Under the pieces are notes generated by a model. That model saw only the letters and a program-made list of their open reading frames with translations. It did no database searches and was not told where the DNA came from. Positions 74 to 11,542 of a DNA stretch of 47,474 bases are shown here, in pieces. Where the stretch lies: NCBI GenBank assembly GCA_016842085.1, contig JAEVEX010000033.1, positions 1 to 47,474 on the forward strand, given 5' to 3'. A program made the position numbers and the translations under genes. The number at the start of each line of letters is the position of its first letter. Position 1 is the stretch's first letter. Source of the DNA: Candidatus Thermoflexus tengchongensis (lineage in GTDB: Bacteria; Chloroflexota; Anaerolineae; Thermoflexales; Thermoflexaceae).

Positions 74-443
74 GCGCTGGCTTCGTTTCGCTCGCGAGGA
101 TCTGCGTATGGCAGAACTCGCTTTCGACGATGGAATTTATAACCAAGCATGCTTCCATGCCCATCAAGCGATTGAGAAGGCCTTGAAAGGGCTCCTGGAA
201 GCCCAGGGCCAGGTGCCGCCACGAACCCACAAGCTGGTGGATTTAGTGCGGCAGATCCCGCAGGGGAAGTGGGGCGACCTGGAGAGCCAGCTGCTCAGGA
301 TGGATCGTTTTTACATCCCGACTCGCTATCCGGACGCTCTCCCAGGGATGTTGCCGGAAGGATGGCCCGGGGAAAAGGACGCCCGGGAGGCATTAGAGCT
401 GGCGCGGGAAGTGCTCCGTCGCATTATGGAGGAAAGCCGATGA
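57..443 (+). CDS. HEPN domain protein, likely toxin of an MNT-HEPN pair
   Basis: This 128-residue all-helical protein has the HEPN core: an N-terminal helix with WLRFAREDLRMAELAF, a second helix with ACFHAHQAIEKALKGLL, and RTHKLVDL in the loop before the third helix. HEPN proteins of this size are RNases or nucleotide-binding partners, and next to MNT proteins they form toxin-antitoxin pairs. It overlaps the MNT fragment upstream by 17 bases and the ccmF start downstream by 4 (ATGA), so all three are probably translated together. The canonical RX4-6H RNase motif is not clear, so it may be a non-catalytic or divergent HEPN. Function is inferred from family and context. Confidence 0.75.
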   Translation: MNPHLERWLRFAREDLRMAELAFDDGIYNQACFHAHQAIEKALKGLLEAQGQVPPRTHKLVDLVRQIPQGKWGDLESQLLRMDRFYIPTRYPDALPGMLPEGWPGEKDAREALELAREVLRRIMEESR

Positions 444-2446
444 GTCTTCTTGGGGAAGGGTTGCTGGATCTGGCCTGGGGTCTGAGCCTGATCGGGACGC
501 TGGCGGCGTTTTATGGGGGATGGCGGCGGGAGGCCCGATGGGTGGAGGTGGCCCGGCGCATCGGACAGGTGATGGCGCCGTTGCTCACCCTCATGGTGCT
601 GGCCCTGGAGATCGCCCTCCTCACCGATGACTTCCGTCTGGTCTATGTGACCCAGGTCTCCCGCCAGACCCAGCCGCTCTTCCTGAAGATCACCGCCCTG
701 TGGGGCGGCCAGAACGGATCCCTGCTCTTCTGGTCCTGGCTGATGAGCCTCTTCCTCTTCGCCGCCATGGCCCGCGCGGCCCGTTTTCCCGCAGACCTCC
801 GGCCCTTCATCGCGGGTGTTCTGTTGCTGACCCAGACCTTCTTTTTGCTGCTCAACCGGTTCTTCGCCAACCCCTTTGAGACCTTTCCGGTCCCCCCGGC
901 GGATGGGCGGGGGTTGAATCCGCTGCTGCGCCATCCGGGGATGATCGCGCATCCTCCTCTGTTATATCTCGGCTTCGTCGGCTTCACGGTTCCCTACGCC
1001 ATCGTCATCGCTGCCCTGCTGGCCGGCCGGCGGGATGATGCGTGGCTCCCATTGCTCCGGCGGTGGACCCTGGTGGCGTGGCTGTTCCTGAGCCTGGGCC
1101 TCCTGGTGGGCGCTCGCTGGGCCTATGATGTGCTGGGCTGGGGCGGTTACTGGGGTTGGGATCCGGTGGAGAACGCGGCGCTGCTCCCCTGGCTGACCGG
1201 CACGGCCTTCCTGCACTCCATGATGGTTCAGGAGCGCCGGGGCATGTTGAAAGTGTGGACATCGCTGCTCATCATCCTCACCTATGCCCTGGTGATCCTG
1301 GGAACGTTCATCACGCGCACCGGGGTGATCGCCTCGGTGCACGCCTTCGCCCGCTCCGCCATCGGGGTGCCCTTCCTGATCTACGTCGGGCTGGTGCTGG
1401 TGGGCTCCCTCGCCCTGCTGGCCGCGCGCTGGGATTTGTTGCGGGCGGAGAACCGGATGGAATCCTGGCTTTCGCGGGAGACTTTCTTCCTGCTCAACAA
1501 CTGGCTCTTTCTGGGGATCGCTTTCGCGGTCTTCTGGGGCACGTTCTACCCGATGTTCTCGGAGCTGCTGTTCAACGAGAAGCTGACCGTAGGCCCCCCT
1601 TACTACAATCAGGTCACCGGCCCCCTGTTTGGAGCCCTCTACCTGCTGATGGGGGTGATCCCCTTCGTTCGCTGGCGGCGGACCCCCGGGGCATCGCTGC
1701 GCCTCTCAGTGGGCTCCTCGTTGTTGGCGGCGCTGGGCGCGGTGGCCCTCGCCGCGATCGCCGGGATCCGACAGCCGTGGGCCCTGCTGGGATTCGGCCT
1801 GTGCGCCTTCGCCGGGTGGGGGACATTGCTGGATTACGCGCTGGGAGTGGGGGCGCGGCGACGGGCGACGGGCGAGCCATGGCCGGTGGCCCTGGCCCGT
1901 CTGATGGCGCGCAACCCGCGGCGATACGGTGGATATCTGGTTCATCTCGGCGTGGTCCTGATCGGGATCGGTGTGATCGGCTCCCAGTTCGATCAGCAGG
2001 AAACCCAGCGCACGATCGGGCTGGGCGATTCCCTGGCCTTCGGCAGCTATCGTCTGGTCTATCAGGGGATCCGGCAATACACGCCGGCAACCGAGCCGGA
2101 CGTGGTGGTCACCGAGGCATGGGTTCGCGTGTATGACCGATCGGGTCGCCGGCTGGCGGATCTGTATCCGTATGTGTTGCAATACGATACCGGGGAAAGC
2201 CTGACGCCGCCGGCCCTGCGGGCGACTTTGAAGGAAGATCTCTACCTGCTGTTGAGCGGATGGGTGGAGGGCGGCAACCGGGCGACGTTCAAGGTGTTCA
2301 TCAACCCGCTGGTCTCGTGGATCTGGATCGGAGGGATCGTGCTGATCCTGGGCACGCTGGTGGCGGTGTGGCCCCGGCCTGCCCTGGCTCCGGTCCCGAG
2401 CGAGATCCGCCCGCCGCTGCAAAAGAAGCCGGCCCCTGTCTTGTAA
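440..2446 (+). CDS. ccmF: Cytochrome c haem lyase subunit CcmF
   Basis: This multi-pass membrane protein of about 668 residues matches CcmF in length (usually about 630-670). It has the tryptophan-rich haem-handling WWD motif WGGYWGWDPVEN starting near residue 234, preceded by HPPLLYLGFVGFTVPYA, which carries a conserved histidine. CcmF with CcmH attaches haem to apocytochrome CxxCH motifs outside the membrane. The ATG at 440 is chosen because it overlaps the HEPN stop and leads straight into the first hydrophobic helix; the frame is open farther upstream, but that part is non-hydrophobic and overlaps HEPN. A soluble domain lies near residues 545-625 before the last helix, as in the family. 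ccmH is separated from it by a two-gene insertion. Confidence 0.95.
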   Translation: MSLLGEGLLDLAWGLSLIGTLAAFYGGWRREARWVEVARRIGQVMAPLLTLMVLALEIALLTDDFRLVYVTQVSRQTQPLFLKITALWGGQNGSLLFWSWLMSLFLFAAMARAARFPADLRPFIAGVLLLTQTFFLLLNRFFANPFETFPVPPADGRGLNPLLRHPGMIAHPPLLYLGFVGFTVPYAIVIAALLAGRRDDAWLPLLRRWTLVAWLFLSLGLLVGARWAYDVLGWGGYWGWDPVENAALLPWLTGTAFLHSMMVQERRGMLKVWTSLLIILTYALVILGTFITRTGVIASVHAFARSAIGVPFLIYVGLVLVGSLALLAARWDLLRAENRMESWLSRETFFLLNNWLFLGIAFAVFWGTFYPMFSELLFNEKLTVGPPYYNQVTGPLFGALYLLMGVIPFVRWRRTPGASLRLSVGSSLLAALGAVALAAIAGIRQPWALLGFGLCAFAGWGTLLDYALGVGARRRATGEPWPVALARLMARNPRRYGGYLVHLGVVLIGIGVIGSQFDQQETQRTIGLGDSLAFGSYRLVYQGIRQYTPATEPDVVVTEAWVRVYDRSGRRLADLYPYVLQYDTGESLTPPALRATLKEDLYLLLSGWVEGGNRATFKVFINPLVSWIWIGGIVLILGTLVAVWPRPALAPVPSEIRPPLQKKPAPVL

Positions 2447-2459
2447 CGATGGAGGAGCC

Positions 2460-3599
2460 ATGCTGAAACGGGTGCGCATTCAGGGATATCGCTGCTTTCG
2501 GGATGTGGATGTCGAATTGAAGCCGTTACAGGTCCTGGTGGGCCCCAACGGGAGCGGGAAGAGCGCCTTCCTGGACGCCATCCGGTTTGTGCGCGACATC
2601 GTGCGCCACCATCTCCGGAGCGCCATGCAGATGCGCGTCTGGAGGCCTGAGGAGCTGTTCTGGAAAGGTCAAGCCAGTGAGATCGACATCCAGCTGACCT
2701 GGGGGAATGATTCCAGCGAGGCGAGGGGGAGCCTGTCCGGGGAAGTGATCTACGAGATCGCTCTGCAGCAGGGAGAGGGAACGGTGGGTATTGTCCGGGA
2801 GCGCCTTTCCTGGGCTGGCCGGACGATCTATCGTCGAACAGGCTCTGAGGTTCGTTTCGAAGAACAGCCCGGGGTGTCCTGGCGCGTGGAGCGCGACCAG
2901 GCTGCGCTCCGGACGCTTTTCGAGTTCACCCCAGAGCCACTGAAAGAGATCGTCAAAGGCTTGCAGGGCTGGTGGTTGAAGGCATGGCCGGAGTTCCTGC
3001 ATCCGGAACCCCGGGCCATCCGAAGGGGGATTCGCCGATGGGAGGAACCCCGGCATCAGCGTTTCTATCCCAATGCGCGCGATCTTCCTCTGCTGATTCA
3101 GCGAATGAAGGAGGCTCATCCGGAAGCCTATCAGTACTGGCTGGATGAGATCCGGTCGCTGATCGGCCAGCATGTGGAGCTCCAGCCGCACCACGACGAA
3201 GTCGCCGGGATCTTCCGCCTCGCCATGAAGTGGAACGGGGTGTGGCTCTCTCCCTCCGGGATCTCTGAGGGCTGGCTCCGGTTTATCGCCCTCAGCCTCC
3301 ATGCTTATGACCCGGAGAATGAGGGGTGCGTGTTCTTTATCGAGGAAATCGAGAACGGTCTGTCCCCCGATTCCATCGATGCCCTCTTCGGGATTATGGT
3401 GGAAACCCCGGCGGTTCAATGGCTGGTCACTTCCCAACATCCCCTGCTCGTCCGATTGGCGGGCCCTGAACGACTGCTGATTTTCTCAAAGGAAGAAGGG
3501 GAAGCGCGGGTTCTTCCGGGTAGCCAGCACCCTCTGTTAAGGGATCTGGAACCCGGGGAGGATCTCGCTGTCCTGTTTCTCGCCCACATTCTCTCCTGA
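2460..3599 (+). CDS. AAA/OLD-like ATPase (AAA_21 type) of a two-gene module
   Basis: This 379-residue ATPase starts with the SMC/RecF-like fold KRVRIQGYRCFRDVDVEL. It has a Walker A motif GPNGSGKS at residues 28-35 and a Walker B FFIEEIENGLSP at about 292-303, preceded by an ABC-signature-like ISEGWLRF. The end, VQWLVTSQHPLLVRL, contains the usual switch histidine after TSQ. Such ATPases power nuclease partners in OLD-like, Septu-like and related phage-defence systems. The start at 2460 has a good ribosome site (GGAGGAG). The next gene follows after 11 bases and encodes a TOPRIM-like protein, so the two probably act together. The defence role is inferred from architecture and pairing; no homology search was possible. 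Confidence 0.85.
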   Translation: MLKRVRIQGYRCFRDVDVELKPLQVLVGPNGSGKSAFLDAIRFVRDIVRHHLRSAMQMRVWRPEELFWKGQASEIDIQLTWGNDSSEARGSLSGEVIYEIALQQGEGTVGIVRERLSWAGRTIYRRTGSEVRFEEQPGVSWRVERDQAALRTLFEFTPEPLKEIVKGLQGWWLKAWPEFLHPEPRAIRRGIRRWEEPRHQRFYPNARDLPLLIQRMKEAHPEAYQYWLDEIRSLIGQHVELQPHHDEVAGIFRLAMKWNGVWLSPSGISEGWLRFIALSLHAYDPENEGCVFFIEEIENGLSPDSIDALFGIMVETPAVQWLVTSQHPLLVRLAGPERLLIFSKEEGEARVLPGSQHPLLRDLEPGEDLAVLFLAHILS

Positions 3600-3610
3600 A
3601 CGGATGTCTT

Positions 3611-4237
3611 ATGGATCTCGTCATCCTGGCGGCAGATTGTAACATCCAGAACGCGCTCCAGAGCCTGTTCGCTCGATTTCCATTGCGGGATCGAGCAGGA
3701 AAGCGGATGGACATCCGTTATGCGATCGCCCGCGATGACCCATTCGCGTTCTATCGTGCTGCTGAATTATTAAGGCCCTATCTGAGAAAGGCACAGTATG
3801 CCCTTGCCGTCCTCGATTTCCAGTGGTCCCATCGCTTTGAGACAAGCGATCGGATCCGCGACCAGTTACGAGATCAACTGGAGAAAAATGGGTGGTCTGG
3901 ACGTTGCGAGGTGATCGTCATCGATCCTGAGCTGGAGGTCTGGGCATGGGCGGATCTGCGGGCCCTGGCCCGGGCGATCTGTGATCACGCTCCTGAATAT
4001 ACGGAGCGTATCTATGAGGAGCTGAGACGCAGAGCTTCCGGTAAGGGCAAGCCGGATGATCCGAAGAGATCCCTGGGAGGCCTTGGAGTTCCGGGCTTCA
4101 AACGGGACAGCGCGTTTTACCGAAGGCTGGCCGATTACGTTTCCCCGGAGGCGATCGTTCGATGCGGGGATCCCGCCTTCTCGTGTTTGCGTTCCGCCCT
4201 ATCCTCCTGGTTTGGGCCCTGGCCGTCCTTGCCGTAA
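3611..4237 (+). CDS. DUF4276/TOPRIM-like protein partnered with the ATPase
   Basis: This 208-residue soluble protein opens with a beta strand MDLVILAADC and has a strand ending in an acidic residue, ALAVLDF (D69). It then has VIVIDPELEVWAWAD (residues 101-115), which resembles the acidic PYI-x-EFE-ALLFAD block of DUF4276 proteins with a TOPRIM-like fold. Such proteins are often encoded directly after AAA ATPases and are proposed nuclease or effector subunits. The C-terminus (FSCLRSALSSWF) fits the natural end of the family. Its last 76 bases overlap the start of ccmH in another frame, so ccmH expression probably depends on this gene being translated. The family call is by motif reading only; the effector activity is inference. 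Confidence 0.6.
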   Translation: MDLVILAADCNIQNALQSLFARFPLRDRAGKRMDIRYAIARDDPFAFYRAAELLRPYLRKAQYALAVLDFQWSHRFETSDRIRDQLRDQLEKNGWSGRCEVIVIDPELEVWAWADLRALARAICDHAPEYTERIYEELRRRASGKGKPDDPKRSLGGLGVPGFKRDSAFYRRLADYVSPEAIVRCGDPAFSCLRSALSSWFGPWPSLP

Positions 4238-4659
4238 CCCGGCCCGCCGGGGCCCAGACCCCGCCCCCGCCGGTGTCCGACGACGAGGTCAACCGGGTGG
4301 CGAAAAATCTCTATTGCCCCGTATGTGAGAATGTGCCGCTGGATGTCTGCGACACGCCGGCATGCATCCAGTGGAAAGAGGAGATCCGGGCGATGCTGGC
4401 GGAGGGGCGGAGCGAAAACGAGATCATCGATTTCTTCGTCACCCGTTATGGGATGCGCGTTCTGGCCGTCCCTCCTCCCCAGGGGATCGGGCTGGGGGTC
4501 TGGCTGATCCCGGCCCTGGGCCTTCCAGCGGCCGGGCTCTGGCTGGCCCTCCGCCTCGCCCGCTGGCGCCGACCCACCCCGCCGCCGGAGCCCTCACCGG
4601 AACCCTCGCTCGATGAAAACGCCCGGATGCTGGACCGCTGGATCCGGGAGCACTGGTAG
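4162..4659 (+). CDS. ccmH: Cytochrome c biogenesis protein CcmH (thiol-reducing subunit)
   Basis: This 165-residue protein has a cleavable signal (to about ...TRPAGAQ), a periplasmic three-helix CcmH domain and a C-terminal membrane helix (about 108-134). The domain reads LYCPVCENVPLDVCDTPAC, with C52 and C55 as the classical CxxC and two extra cysteines, C63 and C68. It continues IQWKEEIRAMLAEGRSENEIIDFFVTRYG, the family signature. CcmH reduces apocytochrome thiols and presents them to CcmF. The start codon lies inside the upstream gene with GGAG about 12 bases before it. The CX4C addition differs from proteobacterial CcmH and could bind metal or form a second redox pair; that is inference. 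Confidence 0.93.
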   Translation: MRGSRLLVFAFRPILLVWALAVLAVTRPAGAQTPPPPVSDDEVNRVAKNLYCPVCENVPLDVCDTPACIQWKEEIRAMLAEGRSENEIIDFFVTRYGMRVLAVPPPQGIGLGVWLIPALGLPAAGLWLALRLARWRRPTPPPEPSPEPSLDENARMLDRWIREHW

Positions 4660-4670
4660 GGAGGAGGGAT

Positions 4671-5216
4671 ATGCCTGGCCGGGGACGGTGGGGCTGGTGG
4701 ATCGGCCTGGCAGCGGTCGTGGTCTTCCTGGCCCTGCTGGGCTGGGCCTTCATCGAACGGGGGCGGACGGCTCCCACACGGGGCCCCGCTCCGGATTTCA
4801 CCCTTCCCCTCTACGAGGGTTATGACGGCGGGCTCGGGATCCGGGAGTTCCGGCTTCGGGATTGGCGGGGACATGTCGTGGTGATCAACTTCTGGGCTTC
4901 CTGGTGTAAGCCGTGTGAAGAGGAGGCCCCGTTGCTGGAGGCCCTGTGGCGGAAGTATCGGGACCGGGGCGTGATCTTTGTGGGGGTGGATTATCTGGAT
5001 GCGCCCTCGGCGGCGATGAATTACCTGCGACGGTTTCAGATCTCCTATCCCAATGGCCTGGATGCCGGCACCCGGATTTCCCGGTTGTATCGCATCACGG
5101 GGGTCCCTGAAACCTTCGTGGTGGACCCCCAGGGACAGGTGGTGTTCTACAAGGCGGCGCCGATCCGGCCCGGCGAGCTGGAGGGGGTAATCGATCGGCT
5201 GCTCCGTTCAGATTAG
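4671..5216 (+). CDS. ccmG: Thioredoxin-like CcmG/DsbE, membrane-anchored
   Basis: The protein has 181 residues. A single N-terminal membrane helix (about 9-28) anchors a TlpA/ResA-type thioredoxin fold on the outer face. The active site is FWASWCKPCEEE, with C79 and C82. The fold is completed by the cis-proline loop GVPETFVVDPQGQ and the family-typical GVDYLD insert. CcmG feeds electrons from CcdA to CcmH and apocytochrome cysteines. It starts 12 bases after ccmH with GGAGGG upstream. About 85 bases without a gene follow before the next start. Confidence 0.93.
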   Translation: MPGRGRWGWWIGLAAVVVFLALLGWAFIERGRTAPTRGPAPDFTLPLYEGYDGGLGIREFRLRDWRGHVVVINFWASWCKPCEEEAPLLEALWRKYRDRGVIFVGVDYLDAPSAAMNYLRRFQISYPNGLDAGTRISRLYRITGVPETFVVDPQGQVVFYKAAPIRPGELEGVIDRLLRSD

Positions 5217-7421: not shown

Positions 7422-8945
7422 ATGAGTTGCTCTACAGTGGACGGGCTGCCGATGCTCCAGCTGGAACGGATTTCCAAGGCGTTCGGCCCGCGGTGGGTGC
7501 TGCGGGAGGTCTCTCTCGCCGTGCATCCGGGAGAGATCGTGGCGTTGATGGGGCCGAACGGGGCCGGGAAGAGCACCATGCTTCGGGTGGCGGCGACGCT
7601 CCTCCGCCCCACATCCGGCCGGGTCCGAATCGGGGGTTCCAGCTGGCCCCCGGATGGGGCCGGGGTTCGCGCCCAGGTGACCCTGCTGGGCCATCAACCC
7701 TGGCTGTATCCGGATCTCAGCGCGGAGGAGAACCTTCGTTTCTACCAGCGTCTATACGGCTGGCCCGAGGAGCCCGGCGCGATCGAAGCGTCGCTCGAGC
7801 GGATGGGCCTGGCGGACCGCGCGCGGGACCCGGTGCGCGGGTTCTCGCGGGGGATGTTGCAGCGGCTGGCGCTGGCCCGCGCCTTCCTTTCGCCGGCTCC
7901 TGTGTTGCTCCTGGATGAGCCGTTCACGGGTCTGGATGTGCTCGGACTGGAGGAAGCCCGTGAGGTCATTCAGGAGCTGGCGGCCCGGGGGCGCGCGGTG
8001 GTGGTGGCGCTCCATGACCCGGCGACCGCCGATTTCGCCCACCGGGTGGTGGTCCTGGTGGGCGGCCGCCTGGTGGCGGAAGGCGCCCCTGTGGCTTTCC
8101 AGGAGAAAGCGCTTCAGGAGCTCTATCAGGCGGGGATGACCCGCCGGCATCGCCTCGCCGCCGGAAGGCCGGCTCGTCGATCCGAAGAGGGAGGTTTCTC
8201 TCCCCCCATGGGGCTCCCCATCGGGGTCCATCCGGTTCCGGCGGAAAGCCGATCTCCTTCCGGTGCCCGGGGACAGGGGCATGAGCTTCGCGCGCTCGGG
8301 GCGTTGCTCTGGAAGGACCTTCGGATCGAGGGGCGGGCACGGGAAACGCTGACCCCCCTTTTAACGCTGGCCGGTTTAAGTCTTTTTCTGTTCGGGACAG
8401 CGTTCGAGCTGCGCCCCGACCTGGCCCGTTCTTTCGTCCCGGTGTTCTTCTGGATGCTTCTGCTTTTCGCCAGCAGCCTGGGCGTGGGGCGGATGATGGC
8501 TTCGGAGATGGATCGGGGAACGTGGGAGGGACTTCTGATGGTGCCGGGGGATCGGAGCGTCCTGTTCGCAGGCAAGGCGATGGTCCACGGGCTGCTGCTG
8601 GGGCTGGTGATCCTTCTCTCCCTGGCCGCCGCGGGCGTGTTCTTCAATCTCTCCCTGTGGGATCCCGGCATCCTCCTGCTCCTGGCCCTGGGGGCGATCG
8701 GGCTCTCGGGAGTGACCACGTTGCTGGCGGCGATGGCGATGGCCACCCGGGCTCGCGAGCTGCTCCTGCCGATCCTGCTGTTCCCGGTGGCCGCCCCCCT
8801 GGTCATCGCCGGCATCCAGGGGACCCGGGCGATCCTGGAGGCGGATCCTTCGGGGTGGTGGATATGGTTGCAGATGCTGATCGCCTACGATCTCCTCCTC
8901 TTTGCTGTGGCGTGGATGGTGTTCGAAGAGGTGGTCAGCGCGTAG
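7422..8945 (+). CDS. ccmA-ccmB: Fused haem exporter CcmA-CcmB (ABC ATPase plus permease)
   Basis: One uninterrupted frame of 507 residues encodes both halves of the CcmAB transporter. Residues 12-238 are a CcmA-type ABC ATPase: Walker A GPNGAGKST at 44-52, signature FSRGMLQR at 141-148, Walker B VLLLDEP at 161-167 and the switch His in VVALHDP. A Pro/Arg/Gly-rich linker of about 50 residues follows. Residues 289-507 are CcmB, with LWKDLRIEGR, a run of hydrophobic helices and the family-typical MASEMDRGTWEGLLM. In most bacteria these are two genes. CcmAB drives release of holo-CcmE from CcmC. The start could also be the ATG at 7452 (MLQLERI), which fits family N-termini slightly better. CcmC follows about 330 bases later. 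Confidence 0.92.
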   Translation: MSCSTVDGLPMLQLERISKAFGPRWVLREVSLAVHPGEIVALMGPNGAGKSTMLRVAATLLRPTSGRVRIGGSSWPPDGAGVRAQVTLLGHQPWLYPDLSAEENLRFYQRLYGWPEEPGAIEASLERMGLADRARDPVRGFSRGMLQRLALARAFLSPAPVLLLDEPFTGLDVLGLEEAREVIQELAARGRAVVVALHDPATADFAHRVVVLVGGRLVAEGAPVAFQEKALQELYQAGMTRRHRLAAGRPARRSEEGGFSPPMGLPIGVHPVPAESRSPSGARGQGHELRALGALLWKDLRIEGRARETLTPLLTLAGLSLFLFGTAFELRPDLARSFVPVFFWMLLLFASSLGVGRMMASEMDRGTWEGLLMVPGDRSVLFAGKAMVHGLLLGLVILLSLAAAGVFFNLSLWDPGILLLLALGAIGLSGVTTLLAAMAMATRARELLLPILLFPVAAPLVIAGIQGTRAILEADPSGWWIWLQMLIAYDLLLFAVAWMVFEEVVSA

Positions 8946-9065: not shown

Positions 9066-9276
9066 GAATCGCCGTGAATATTATGACGGAGGCCGTTGGC
9101 TCAAATCGGGCAGAGGAGATGGCCCTTTGCCCTTTTCTCCCATTGTAGGGGCCGCTTGAGCGGCGACTTTGGCGGCGACGCTGGTCGGGGCTGGAAATCG
9201 ATGCGAAAGGCACCGGGAAAACCGCCTGCTTCCGGTAACGCAGGCCCTTTCTCTTCCCCGGATCAAGGAGGCTTTT

Positions 9277-9972
9277 ATGCGGGCGTGGGAACGGATCTGG
9301 CTTGGGGTGACCATCGCTCTGATGATCCTGGCGACCCTCGCGGTCTTCCTTTATGCGCCCCGTGAGGCGAAAATGGGGGATGTGCAGCGGATCTTTTACT
9401 TCCATATCAGCACCGCATGGTCCGGCTTTCTGGCTTTTGCCGTGGCGCTCATCGGCGCGATCGCTTACCTGCGGACACGGTCGGCCCGCTGGGATCAGCT
9501 GAGCCATGCCGCGGTGGAGGTCGGGCTGGTGCTGCTTACCATGGCGATCGTCACGGGTTCCCTCTGGGCTCGCCCCGTATGGAATACATGGTGGACATGG
9601 GATCCGCGATTGACCACCACGACGATCACCTGGGTGGTGTATCTGGCTTATCTGCTCCTGCGGAACGCGGTGGAGAACCCGGAGACCCGCGCCCGCTTTG
9701 CGGCGGTTTACGCCATCGTGGCCTTCGTGACCGTGCCCATTACGTATCTTTCGGCCCGCCTGCTTCGCACAATCCATCCGATTGTGCTGGGTCCCAGCGT
9801 CTCCTCGGAGGCCCAGGGGCAATTCGGCCTGACGCCCCGCATGGTGCATACGATGGTGCTCAGCCTGATCGCCTGGACGTTGCTGTTCAGCGTGCTGCTC
9901 TGGATGCGCTACCGGGTCCAGCGGGCCCAGGAGACGCTGGAGGGCCTCGAAGCGGTGGCCGAGGAGGCCTGA
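9277..9972 (+). CDS. ccmC: Haem exporter / haem-handling protein CcmC
   Basis: This six-helix membrane protein of about 231 residues matches CcmC length. It has the family features QRIFYFHISTAWSGFLAF (axial histidine in FH), the WWD motif WNTWWTWDPRLTTTTITW, and a later histidine in LLRTIHPIV. CcmC loads haem onto CcmE. The ATG at 9277 is preferred to an upstream in-frame start because AAGGAG lies 6-11 bases before it and it begins right at the first helix. A long C-terminal extension is not present. A 49-residue CcmD-like gene follows 85 bases downstream. Confidence 0.94.
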   Translation: MRAWERIWLGVTIALMILATLAVFLYAPREAKMGDVQRIFYFHISTAWSGFLAFAVALIGAIAYLRTRSARWDQLSHAAVEVGLVLLTMAIVTGSLWARPVWNTWWTWDPRLTTTTITWVVYLAYLLLRNAVENPETRARFAAVYAIVAFVTVPITYLSARLLRTIHPIVLGPSVSSEAQGQFGLTPRMVHTMVLSLIAWTLLFSVLLWMRYRVQRAQETLEGLEAVAEEA

Positions 9973-10057: not shown

Positions 10058-10207
10058 ATGGGCTATCTGGTCGCAGCGTATCTGGTCTTCTGGGGGGTCA
10101 CGTTCTTCTATGTGCTATATCTGTTGCGCCGGCAGCAGGCGCTGGAAGAGCGGATCGCCCGCCTGCGCGCGCGGTTCAACCCGGAGCAGGGGGAGGAAAA
10201 ACGATGA
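10058..10207 (+). CDS. ccmD: CcmD-like single-helix protein (49 residues)
   Basis: A very short gene encodes one membrane helix (YLVAAYLVFWGVTFFYVLYLL, residues 3-23) followed by a basic amphipathic helix (RRQQALEERIARLRARF). This is the pattern of CcmD, which stabilises the CcmABC complex and helps free holo-CcmE. It follows ccmC, as usual, with TGGAG about 12 bases upstream, and overlaps the next gene by 4 bases (ATGA). CcmD sequences diverge strongly, so the call rests on length, topology and place. Confidence 0.8.
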   Translation: MGYLVAAYLVFWGVTFFYVLYLLRRQQALEERIARLRARFNPEQGEEKR

Positions 10208-11013
10208 GCTCCGGTGAAGGAGTGATGCCTGCGCTCCGCTGGCGCACGTTCTCCCATGCCCTGGCCTTCGTGCTGGGGTTCTCGTTCGTGTTCGTCTTCG
10301 CCTGGGGTGGGGCAGCGACCCTCCTTGGCCAGCTCTTCTTCGAGGGGCGAGATTTTCTGGCCGCCCTCGGGGGGAGCGTGGTGATCCTGATGGGCCTGGG
10401 GATGCTGGGGGTCCGGATCCCCCTGCTGTATCCTTTGATGATGTCCGAGTGGCGCCCGCATCTCCGGGAGGTCCGCTCGTTCAGTTATCTGACCTCCGGG
10501 CTGATGGGGGTCTTTTTCGCCGCCGGGTGGACTCCCTGTGTAGGCCCCACGCTGGGGGCGATCCTCACCCTGACGTTCCAGCAGGAGACGGCGGGTCAGG
10601 CGCTGGGGCTGCTGGCTGCTTATGCCGCCGGCCTGGGGATTCCCTTCCTGGCCATGGGGCTGTTGCTGGATCACGCCCTCGCCGGGGTGCGGCGGATGCG
10701 CCGGTATCTCCCGGTCGCCCAGGCTGTGAGCGGCGTGCTGCTTCTCCTCATCGGCGGGATGGTGCTGCTGGATGTGCTGCCCCGGTTCCTCCCCTCTTTG
10801 ACGCTGCCCCTCTGGGCCCCTACGTTCACCAATTTGCGCGTCTGGACGTTCCAGCTGGGTCTATTTCTCGATGTGGGGCCGGGCGCCGGATTGGGCTATC
10901 CCGTCGCTTTCCTGGCCGGTCTGCTTTCTTTCTTTTCGCCGTGTGTCTTCCCCTTAGTCCCCGCCTATCTGGGCTATCTCAGCGGCCGGAGCCTGGGAGG
11001 GATCCATGGGTAA
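10204..11013 (+). CDS. ccdA: CcdA-like thiol-disulfide transporter, circularly permuted
   Basis: The protein has 269 residues and six predicted helices near 17-42, 51-70, 97-125, 131-158, 169-191 and 232-260. CcdA moves electrons across the membrane from thioredoxin through one cysteine in TM1 (SPC) and one in TM4 (TPC). Here the N-terminus starts at the helix normally second (SHALAFVLGFSFVFVF), the TPC motif follows at C112, and the usual first helix (FLAGLLSFFSPCVFPLVPAY, C247) lies at the C-terminus. The order is therefore TM2-3-4-5-6-1. No TM1 is encoded just upstream, where only ccmD lies. With six helices, this permutation keeps each helix's orientation. It overlaps the TlpA gene by 8 bases, its likely electron acceptor. 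Confidence 0.85.
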   Translation: MSSGEGVMPALRWRTFSHALAFVLGFSFVFVFAWGGAATLLGQLFFEGRDFLAALGGSVVILMGLGMLGVRIPLLYPLMMSEWRPHLREVRSFSYLTSGLMGVFFAAGWTPCVGPTLGAILTLTFQQETAGQALGLLAAYAAGLGIPFLAMGLLLDHALAGVRRMRRYLPVAQAVSGVLLLLIGGMVLLDVLPRFLPSLTLPLWAPTFTNLRVWTFQLGLFLDVGPGAGLGYPVAFLAGLLSFFSPCVFPLVPAYLGYLSGRSLGGIHG

Positions 11014-11542
11014 GCGGGCGATCGCGCTCCTGATGCTGCTCGCCATGGCCTGTCAGCGCCTTCCCGGGGGGAATCCGGCGCCTTCTGTTTCCACCCCCGT
11101 CTCCATGGGCCTGACCACCGGGATCCCGGCGCCGGATTTCGAGCTGGAGCGCCTGGATGGGGGAACGGTGCGCCTGAGGGATCTGCGGGGGAAGGTCGTG
11201 CTGTTGAACTTCTGGGCCACCTGGTGTGTGCCGTGCCGGGAGGAGATGCCGTTGCTGGCCCAGATCTACCGGGATTACCATGAGCAGGGCCTGGAGATCC
11301 TGGGGGTGAACCTCACTTCCCAGGACGATTTCTCGGAGGTGCGCAAGTTCGTGGAGGAGTTCGATCTGCCGTTCCCCATCCTGCTGGATCACAACGGTCG
11401 GGCGGAGCGCGCCTATCGCATCTTCGGGGTTCCCACCACGGTTTTCATCACCCGGGAGGGGATCGTCCACCGGGTGGTGGTGGGCATCCTGAAGGGGCGC
11501 GAGGATGTGGAGAAAACCATCCGGCCCCTGTTGAGTCGCTAA
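11006..11542 (+). CDS. TlpA/ResA-type thioredoxin-like lipoprotein
   Basis: The protein has 178 residues. It has a short lipoprotein signal with lipobox LAMAC (C16), a Pro/Ser linker, then a TlpA/ResA redoxin domain. The domain contains PAPDFELERLDGGTVRLRDL, active site FWATWCVPCREEM (C74, C77) and cis-Pro loop GVPTTVFITREG. It would be held on the outer face and reduced by the adjacent CcdA-like protein, whose gene it overlaps. It may serve cytochrome thiols alongside CcmG or another extracytoplasmic target such as a CuA site. The functional split between the two redoxins cannot be told from sequence. Confidence 0.92.
   Translation: MGKRAIALLMLLAMACQRLPGGNPAPSVSTPVSMGLTTGIPAPDFELERLDGGTVRLRDLRGKVVLLNFWATWCVPCREEMPLLAQIYRDYHEQGLEILGVNLTSQDDFSEVRKFVEEFDLPFPILLDHNGRAERAYRIFGVPTTVFITREGIVHRVVVGILKGREDVEKTIRPLLSR

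Follow-up and report, generated by a model that had tools for sequence, protein, structure and literature searches.

The nearest precedent for the protein described here is the whole-repeat swapping of the CPA/AT transporters, as seen between Mem_trans and SBF_like (PMC8396727). Circular permutants of rhodopsin, in the part of PMC7162841 that cites them, are engineered laboratory constructs, and the authors of that 2020 review knew of no observed circular permutations in membrane proteins. A search of the open literature found no report of a permuted CcdA; subscription literature lay outside this search, and priority is uncertain.

The window analysed here, a stretch of 47,474 nucleotides, contains an open reading frame (10204..11013, + strand, as are all features given below) encoding a protein of 269 aa that, judged by its sequence, is a CcdA with helix 1 moved behind helix 6. 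The chain begins with a new basic N-terminus, predicted to be cytoplasmic, and the TM2 equivalent (residues 9-41; 10228..10326), followed by the equivalents of TM3 (residues 49-67; 10348..10404), TM4 (residues 95-125; 10486..10578), TM5 (residues 130-153; 10591..10662) and TM6 (residues 155-195; 10666..10788). Bounds of TM2, TM3, TM5 and TM6 were taken from AF2 helix bounds and from profile alignment to the solved Thermus thermophilus CcdA (PDB 5vkv). TM4 carries the motif GWTPCVGP with the invariant C112 (codon 10537-10539). A TM6-TM1 linker (10789..10896), part of which (GLFLDVG) resembles the C-tails GFFVDFGL and GVGWDVGL of ordinary CcdA, then leads to the TM1 equivalent at the C-terminus (residues 232-268; 10897..11007). 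Here C247 (codon 10942-10944) lies within SFFSPCVFPLVPAY / LLSFFSPCVFPLVPAY, 22 residues from the protein end. Both redox cysteines, C247 in the SPC motif of TM1 and C112 in the TPC motif of TM4, are invariant in the two alignments (A1 and A2).

Profile comparisons reveal the same arrangement. Pfam DsbD_TM (PF02683) matches residues 12-184 of the window protein with profile positions 41-211 (43.2 bits against a cut-off of 27.1), while profile positions 7-35, the TM1 part, map downstream of the remaining profile in the genome search. In fact, all parts of the window protein align to 5vkv, supporting homology to CcdA TM1-6 over all six helices, and a profile built from permuted relatives matches 5vkv in two stretches of swapped order (216-248 to chain 3-35, and 16-200 to chain 40-214), whereas one built from ordinary relatives gives a single continuous match. 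The colinear order TM1-6 is absent from the window protein, and because its order is TM2-6-1 we class it as a permuted variant rather than an ordinary DsbD_TM member. With both segments homologous to the parent, their order swapped and the relatives arranged alike, the protein is a circular permutation. The original prediction had proposed exactly this from the letters alone, with the order TM2-3-4-5-6-1, C112 in a TPC motif and C247 near the C-terminus; the Pfam and 5vkv profile matches agree with it, and homologs with the same order exist in the same genus, in other Chloroflexota and in further phyla.

A helix order of this kind could arise as an assembly or sequencing artefact, and the window's genome is indeed fragmented and contains a second near-identical copy. 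Six of the eight other genomes of the genus, however, have a match (76-89% identity, each in single copy). The permuted order is complete to the end in five of these six, the match in G002 being cut within TM1 by a contig end; one of the genomes with this order, G004, is a single contig. The reading frame is intact, and dN/dS among genus members is 0.09-0.20 (about 0.1-0.2): permuted ccdA is under purifying selection in this genus. The six-frame translations of the flanking DNA contain no second TM1, the single TM1 match being the C-terminal one. Assembly error and a missed upstream TM1, either of which would have undone the original prediction, are therefore ruled out, since the same-genus genomes agree and the flanking frames lack a second TM1. 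Considering as well that the order is repeated in 102 distinct permuted proteins across several phyla, we give an artefact practically no credence.

The second copy (L031, on the 7361-base contig G000:C3) is a further ccmAB-ccmC-ccdA-resA stretch whose ccdA is 96% identical, with a dS of 0.12; it reflects either mixed strains within the bin or a duplication that happened recently, other genus members being single-copy. Besides this copy, no other DsbD_TM match above the cut-off was found in the window's own genome, nor any in G003 or G004, and thus these three genomes have no clear CcdA besides the permuted form.

The permuted form extends well beyond the genus. Chloroflexota were sampled through class relatives, 400 genomes of the phylum and a scan of genome contigs, and the order was verified by motif and by three segment HMMs. 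In the 400-genome search, at least 27 genomes have end-to-end colinear matches among the matches listed. The contig scan also yielded a Woesearchaeota archaeon (L046), a Deinococcales MAG (L073) and a bacterium (L043). When their phyla were searched, 14, 21 and 20 genomes, respectively, proved to carry permuted CcdA, as segment order confirmed. As a control, no permuted form occurs among the matches listed in 249 Pseudomonadota genomes, so the query itself does not create the permuted order. After removal of duplicates, 102 distinct permuted CcdA proteins were obtained, from Chloroflexota, Deinococcota, the phylum of L043 and Woesearchaeota-type archaea. The helix order of the window protein is thus far beyond chance, recurring in 102 distinct proteins including those of same-genus genomes.

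Two sets of loci deserve separate mention. Deinococcota genomes such as G674, G675, G676, G680 and G681 pair a permuted CcdA with an ordinary one, as judged by match range, and offer a natural test of whether the two forms divide their labour. In L134 (G372), L143 (G028) and L144 (G041), the permuted ccdA is split over two frames, shortened, or has SLC for SPC in TM1; these copies are either pseudogenes or sequence errors.

The surroundings of the window gene are those of a CcdA, with a ResA/CcmG thioredoxin and cytochrome c maturation genes adjoining it. From their domain matches, the ccm genes of the window are read as a System I cytochrome c maturation cluster: (I) CcmF (269..2446; Pfam CcmF_C), (II) CcmH (4162..4659; Pfam CcmH), (III) a CcmG-like second thioredoxin-fold protein (4671..5216; Pfam AhpC-TSA/Redoxin), (IV) a CcmA-CcmB fusion in one ORF of 507 aa (7422..8945; ABC_tran at 27-168, CcmB at 294-496) and (V) the heme exporter subunit CcmC (9169..9972; Pfam Cytochrom_C_asm, NCBIfam ccmC). 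Immediately upstream of the window gene lies an ORF of 49 aa (10058..10207), CcmD-like in having one hydrophobic stretch and a basic tail, which overlaps the ccdA start (ATGA); that the upstream DNA encodes only a CcmD-like protein had been noted originally and holds. Downstream follows a ResA/CcmG-type thioredoxin with the motif WCVPC (11006..11542; Pfam, NCBIfam). An ORF for an AAA_21 ATPase (2460-3599) between ccmF and ccmH breaks up the cluster, which also contains two different thioredoxin-fold proteins (4671-5216 and 11006-11542).

The conserved ccmAB-ccmC-ccdA-resA slot is occupied by ordinary ccdA in the loci L019, L022, L152 and L157 and by permuted ccdA in L038, L045 and L145; several families have the permuted gene in this place, others the ordinary one. 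We consider it likely, by analogy with the family, that the function is transmembrane electron delivery to a ResA/CcmG thioredoxin in cytochrome c maturation, and the thioredoxin encoded at 11006..11542 is the likely electron acceptor. In such a pathway, a cytoplasmic thioredoxin would reduce the C112-C247 pair, which would hand electrons outward to the ResA/CcmG thioredoxin of the neighbouring gene, and this in turn would keep the heme-binding cysteines of cytochrome c reduced. One could imagine instead that the permuted proteins have given up the role of CcdA and serve, for example, in other transport; the NCBIfam library leaves the window protein unnamed. Such a change of function appears highly improbable given that none of the 118 permuted loci scanned (a redundant set) lacks either redox cysteine, that the operon slot is that of ordinary CcdA and that the permuted gene is the sole CcdA found in several genomes.

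Membrane topology offers a rationale for a preserved function. Owing to the even number of helices, the old ends of CcdA lie on the same outer side of the membrane, where they could be joined. Opening the cytoplasmic TM1-TM2 loop would then create the new ends with every helix orientation kept, and because of this the permuted protein should work as a CcdA. Across the permuted loci, the mean net charge is +1.46 for the new N-terminus and -1.15 for the TM6-TM1 linker. By the positive-inside rule, a basic N-terminus and an acidic linker are what one expects if the ends are cytoplasmic and the linker lies outside, in line with the original placement of the new ends in the TM1-TM2 loop.

AF2, run on 18 permuted sequences, gave a model with six long helices (pLDDT 78.6, pTM 0.72) in which the C-terminal TM1 is broken. 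VIA-align superimposes model residues 10-225 on 5vkv 34-224 (181 residues, rmsd 4.8, 29% identity), covering TM2-6 only, with a Z of 5.7 that is not specific, as unrelated rows reach the same range and 5vkv ranks fifth by Z among them, although its identity and number of aligned residues are high. The model of an ordinary control matched 5vkv clearly (Z 8.9 over 199 residues). Foldseek, a sequential aligner and hence unsuited to permutation, returned no match of the permuted model in the PDB at E <= 0.001. Sequential aligners such as Foldseek and VIA-align cannot place the moved TM1, and their results are no evidence against permutation. We infer a fold in which TM1 packs in its old place, which would put C247 beside C112.

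The new linkers point to how the permutation came about. The TM6-TM1 linker of permuted CcdA opens with sequence corresponding to the C-terminal tail of ordinary sisters. In the Chloroflexota protein L145, the linker reads AQFGTFINVDQGLVQGSSSQIS and then enters TM1, while its ordinary relative L157 ends with AQYGTFLDIDLEL and starts with MEAQNLT before TM1. Similarly, in the phylum of L043 an ordinary end AGWFYQFVPAPTL compares with the permuted linker TAWLYQTFPAAATLGTG...GGGAIT, and in archaea ANFAFLNEFLLR compares with ANFEFASSLLLKYNLG...STLG. With shuffled linkers as control, the agreement between linkers and the ordinary tails of the same lineage has z of 13.6, 12.2, 10.2 and 2.9 in four lineages, whereas z against the tails of other lineages is mostly about 0 (one exception, 3.9); part of this signal, being close to TM6, is shared helix-end ancestry. 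Despite this share, the linker sequences still tie every permuted lineage to the ordinary one it belongs with. An extra insert in the linker weakens the trace of head-to-tail fusion in the window's genus (z 3.7 and 4.8).

These linkers, by retaining the C-tail of their own lineage, support the route already suggested in the original prediction, duplication followed by end losses. In this scenario, ccdA would have been duplicated in tandem in place inside the ccm operon, both copies would have fused in frame head to tail, and the first copy would then have lost TM1 and the second TM2-6. We regard this origin as likely, the duplication step itself being deduced from its presumed products. Direct relocation of the TM1 segment, without tandem duplication and end loss, would fit the lack of intermediates: among the loci scanned, none showed a doubled form, whether TM1 at both ends or tandem or adjacent ccdA copies. 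Such an intermediate would support the route but is not a condition of permutation, and its absence does not exclude one. In the linkers, moreover, an old C-tail precedes an N-leader similar to the leaders of ordinary sisters. Head-to-tail fusion would leave this arrangement, which makes direct relocation unlikely.

Beyond what had been predicted, the permutation is both widespread and recurrent. A tree of 98 proteins, computed from core and TM1 columns, requires 9 order changes (8-10 across bootstraps), at least 4 of them forced by strong branches; a quick tree of 184 proteins gives 11 changes, at least 6 forced. In the larger tree, the archaeal permuted proteins are nested inside an archaeal ordinary clade. 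Most permuted proteins of the L043 phylum are, with strong branches, sister to the ordinary ones of that phylum. Within Chloroflexota, permuted L029 and L108 cluster with ordinary L023, L024, L030 and L054, and permuted L020, L045 and L145 cluster with ordinary L152, L156 and L157, with which they share a long TM3-TM4 insert. This insert, largely hydrophobic and up to about 120 residues long in these six proteins, probably forms extra helices. A second, separate permuted set in the L043 phylum (L254, L255 and L256) lies near alphaproteobacterial and acidobacterial ordinary CcdA and represents either another origin or a transfer.

Could one ancient permutation explain all cases, with ordinary members inside permuted groups being reversions or tree errors? 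The protein tree has about 220 columns, many weak branches and some long rows, which leaves room for such errors. Nevertheless, constraining all permuted proteins to one clade is rejected by the AU test (dlnL 199, p-AU about 1e-48). The tested group has the advantage of being defined by trait and not by tree, though alignment and long branches are caveats. Archaeal and most L043-phylum permuted proteins are placed with their own ordinary relatives on strong branches, linkers resemble the C-tails of ordinary CcdA from the same lineage and, for the most part, from no other, and both orders occur inside the one clade marked by the long TM3-TM4 insert. A single ancient event is accordingly very hard to sustain, and permutation of CcdA arose several times independently, in distant bacteria and archaea.

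The number of these events might nonetheless be lower than the tree count if horizontal transfer of a few permuted genes explained part of the spread. Deinococcota permuted proteins do lie far in the tree from ordinary ones of the same phylum, and several Deinococcota genomes carry both forms. The archaeal, L043-phylum and two Chloroflexota cases, on the other hand, adjoin their own ordinary relatives and share tails with them, and we hold a reduction by transfer to be possible, though the less probable reading. A further-reaching reading, which we consider probable, is that CcdA was permuted many times (at least 4-6 events, across bacteria and archaea), each time by in-place head-to-tail tandem fusion, and that natural circular permutation of helical membrane proteins is recurrent and not rare. 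For the window gene itself we are strongly confident that it is a predicted functional CcdA and a true circular permutant, likely produced via tandem duplication, in a family with several independent origins of this order.

In sum, the order of the helices in a membrane protein can change in nature while the gene stays in service. CcdA offers a family with recurring permutation, fusion fossils and both forms in one operon slot of related genomes, and with it the evolution of membrane topology becomes directly testable: one can ask how changes in helix order, insertion order and end location are compatible with a kept function. Pairs of ordinary and permuted CcdA are minimal six-helix systems for folding studies. 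The family also holds a warning, in that order-dependent annotation sees only TM2-6 of a permuted CcdA.

Compared with T. thermophilus CcdA (PDB 5vkv; PF02683), the window protein shares six homologous helices, both redox cysteine motifs and a redox operon context, but has helix 1 at the C-terminus and ends predicted to be cytoplasmic, whereas those of 5vkv are outside. The ordinary Chloroflexota CcdA proteins L019, L022, L152 and L157 resemble it in gene neighbourhood and cysteines, and the C-tail of L157 is retained in the L145 linker, yet all four have TM1 at the N-terminus. The rhodopsin permutants, as far as PMC7162841 presents them, are alike in being a helical membrane protein that tolerates permutation. 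Like the CPA/AT transporters, permuted CcdA has parts of a helical transporter re-ordered, apparently by duplication and shuffling. In CPA/AT, however, the exchange between families concerns whole inverted repeats, and their orientation flips, whereas in permuted CcdA a single helix moves, with its orientation kept, within one family and repeatedly.
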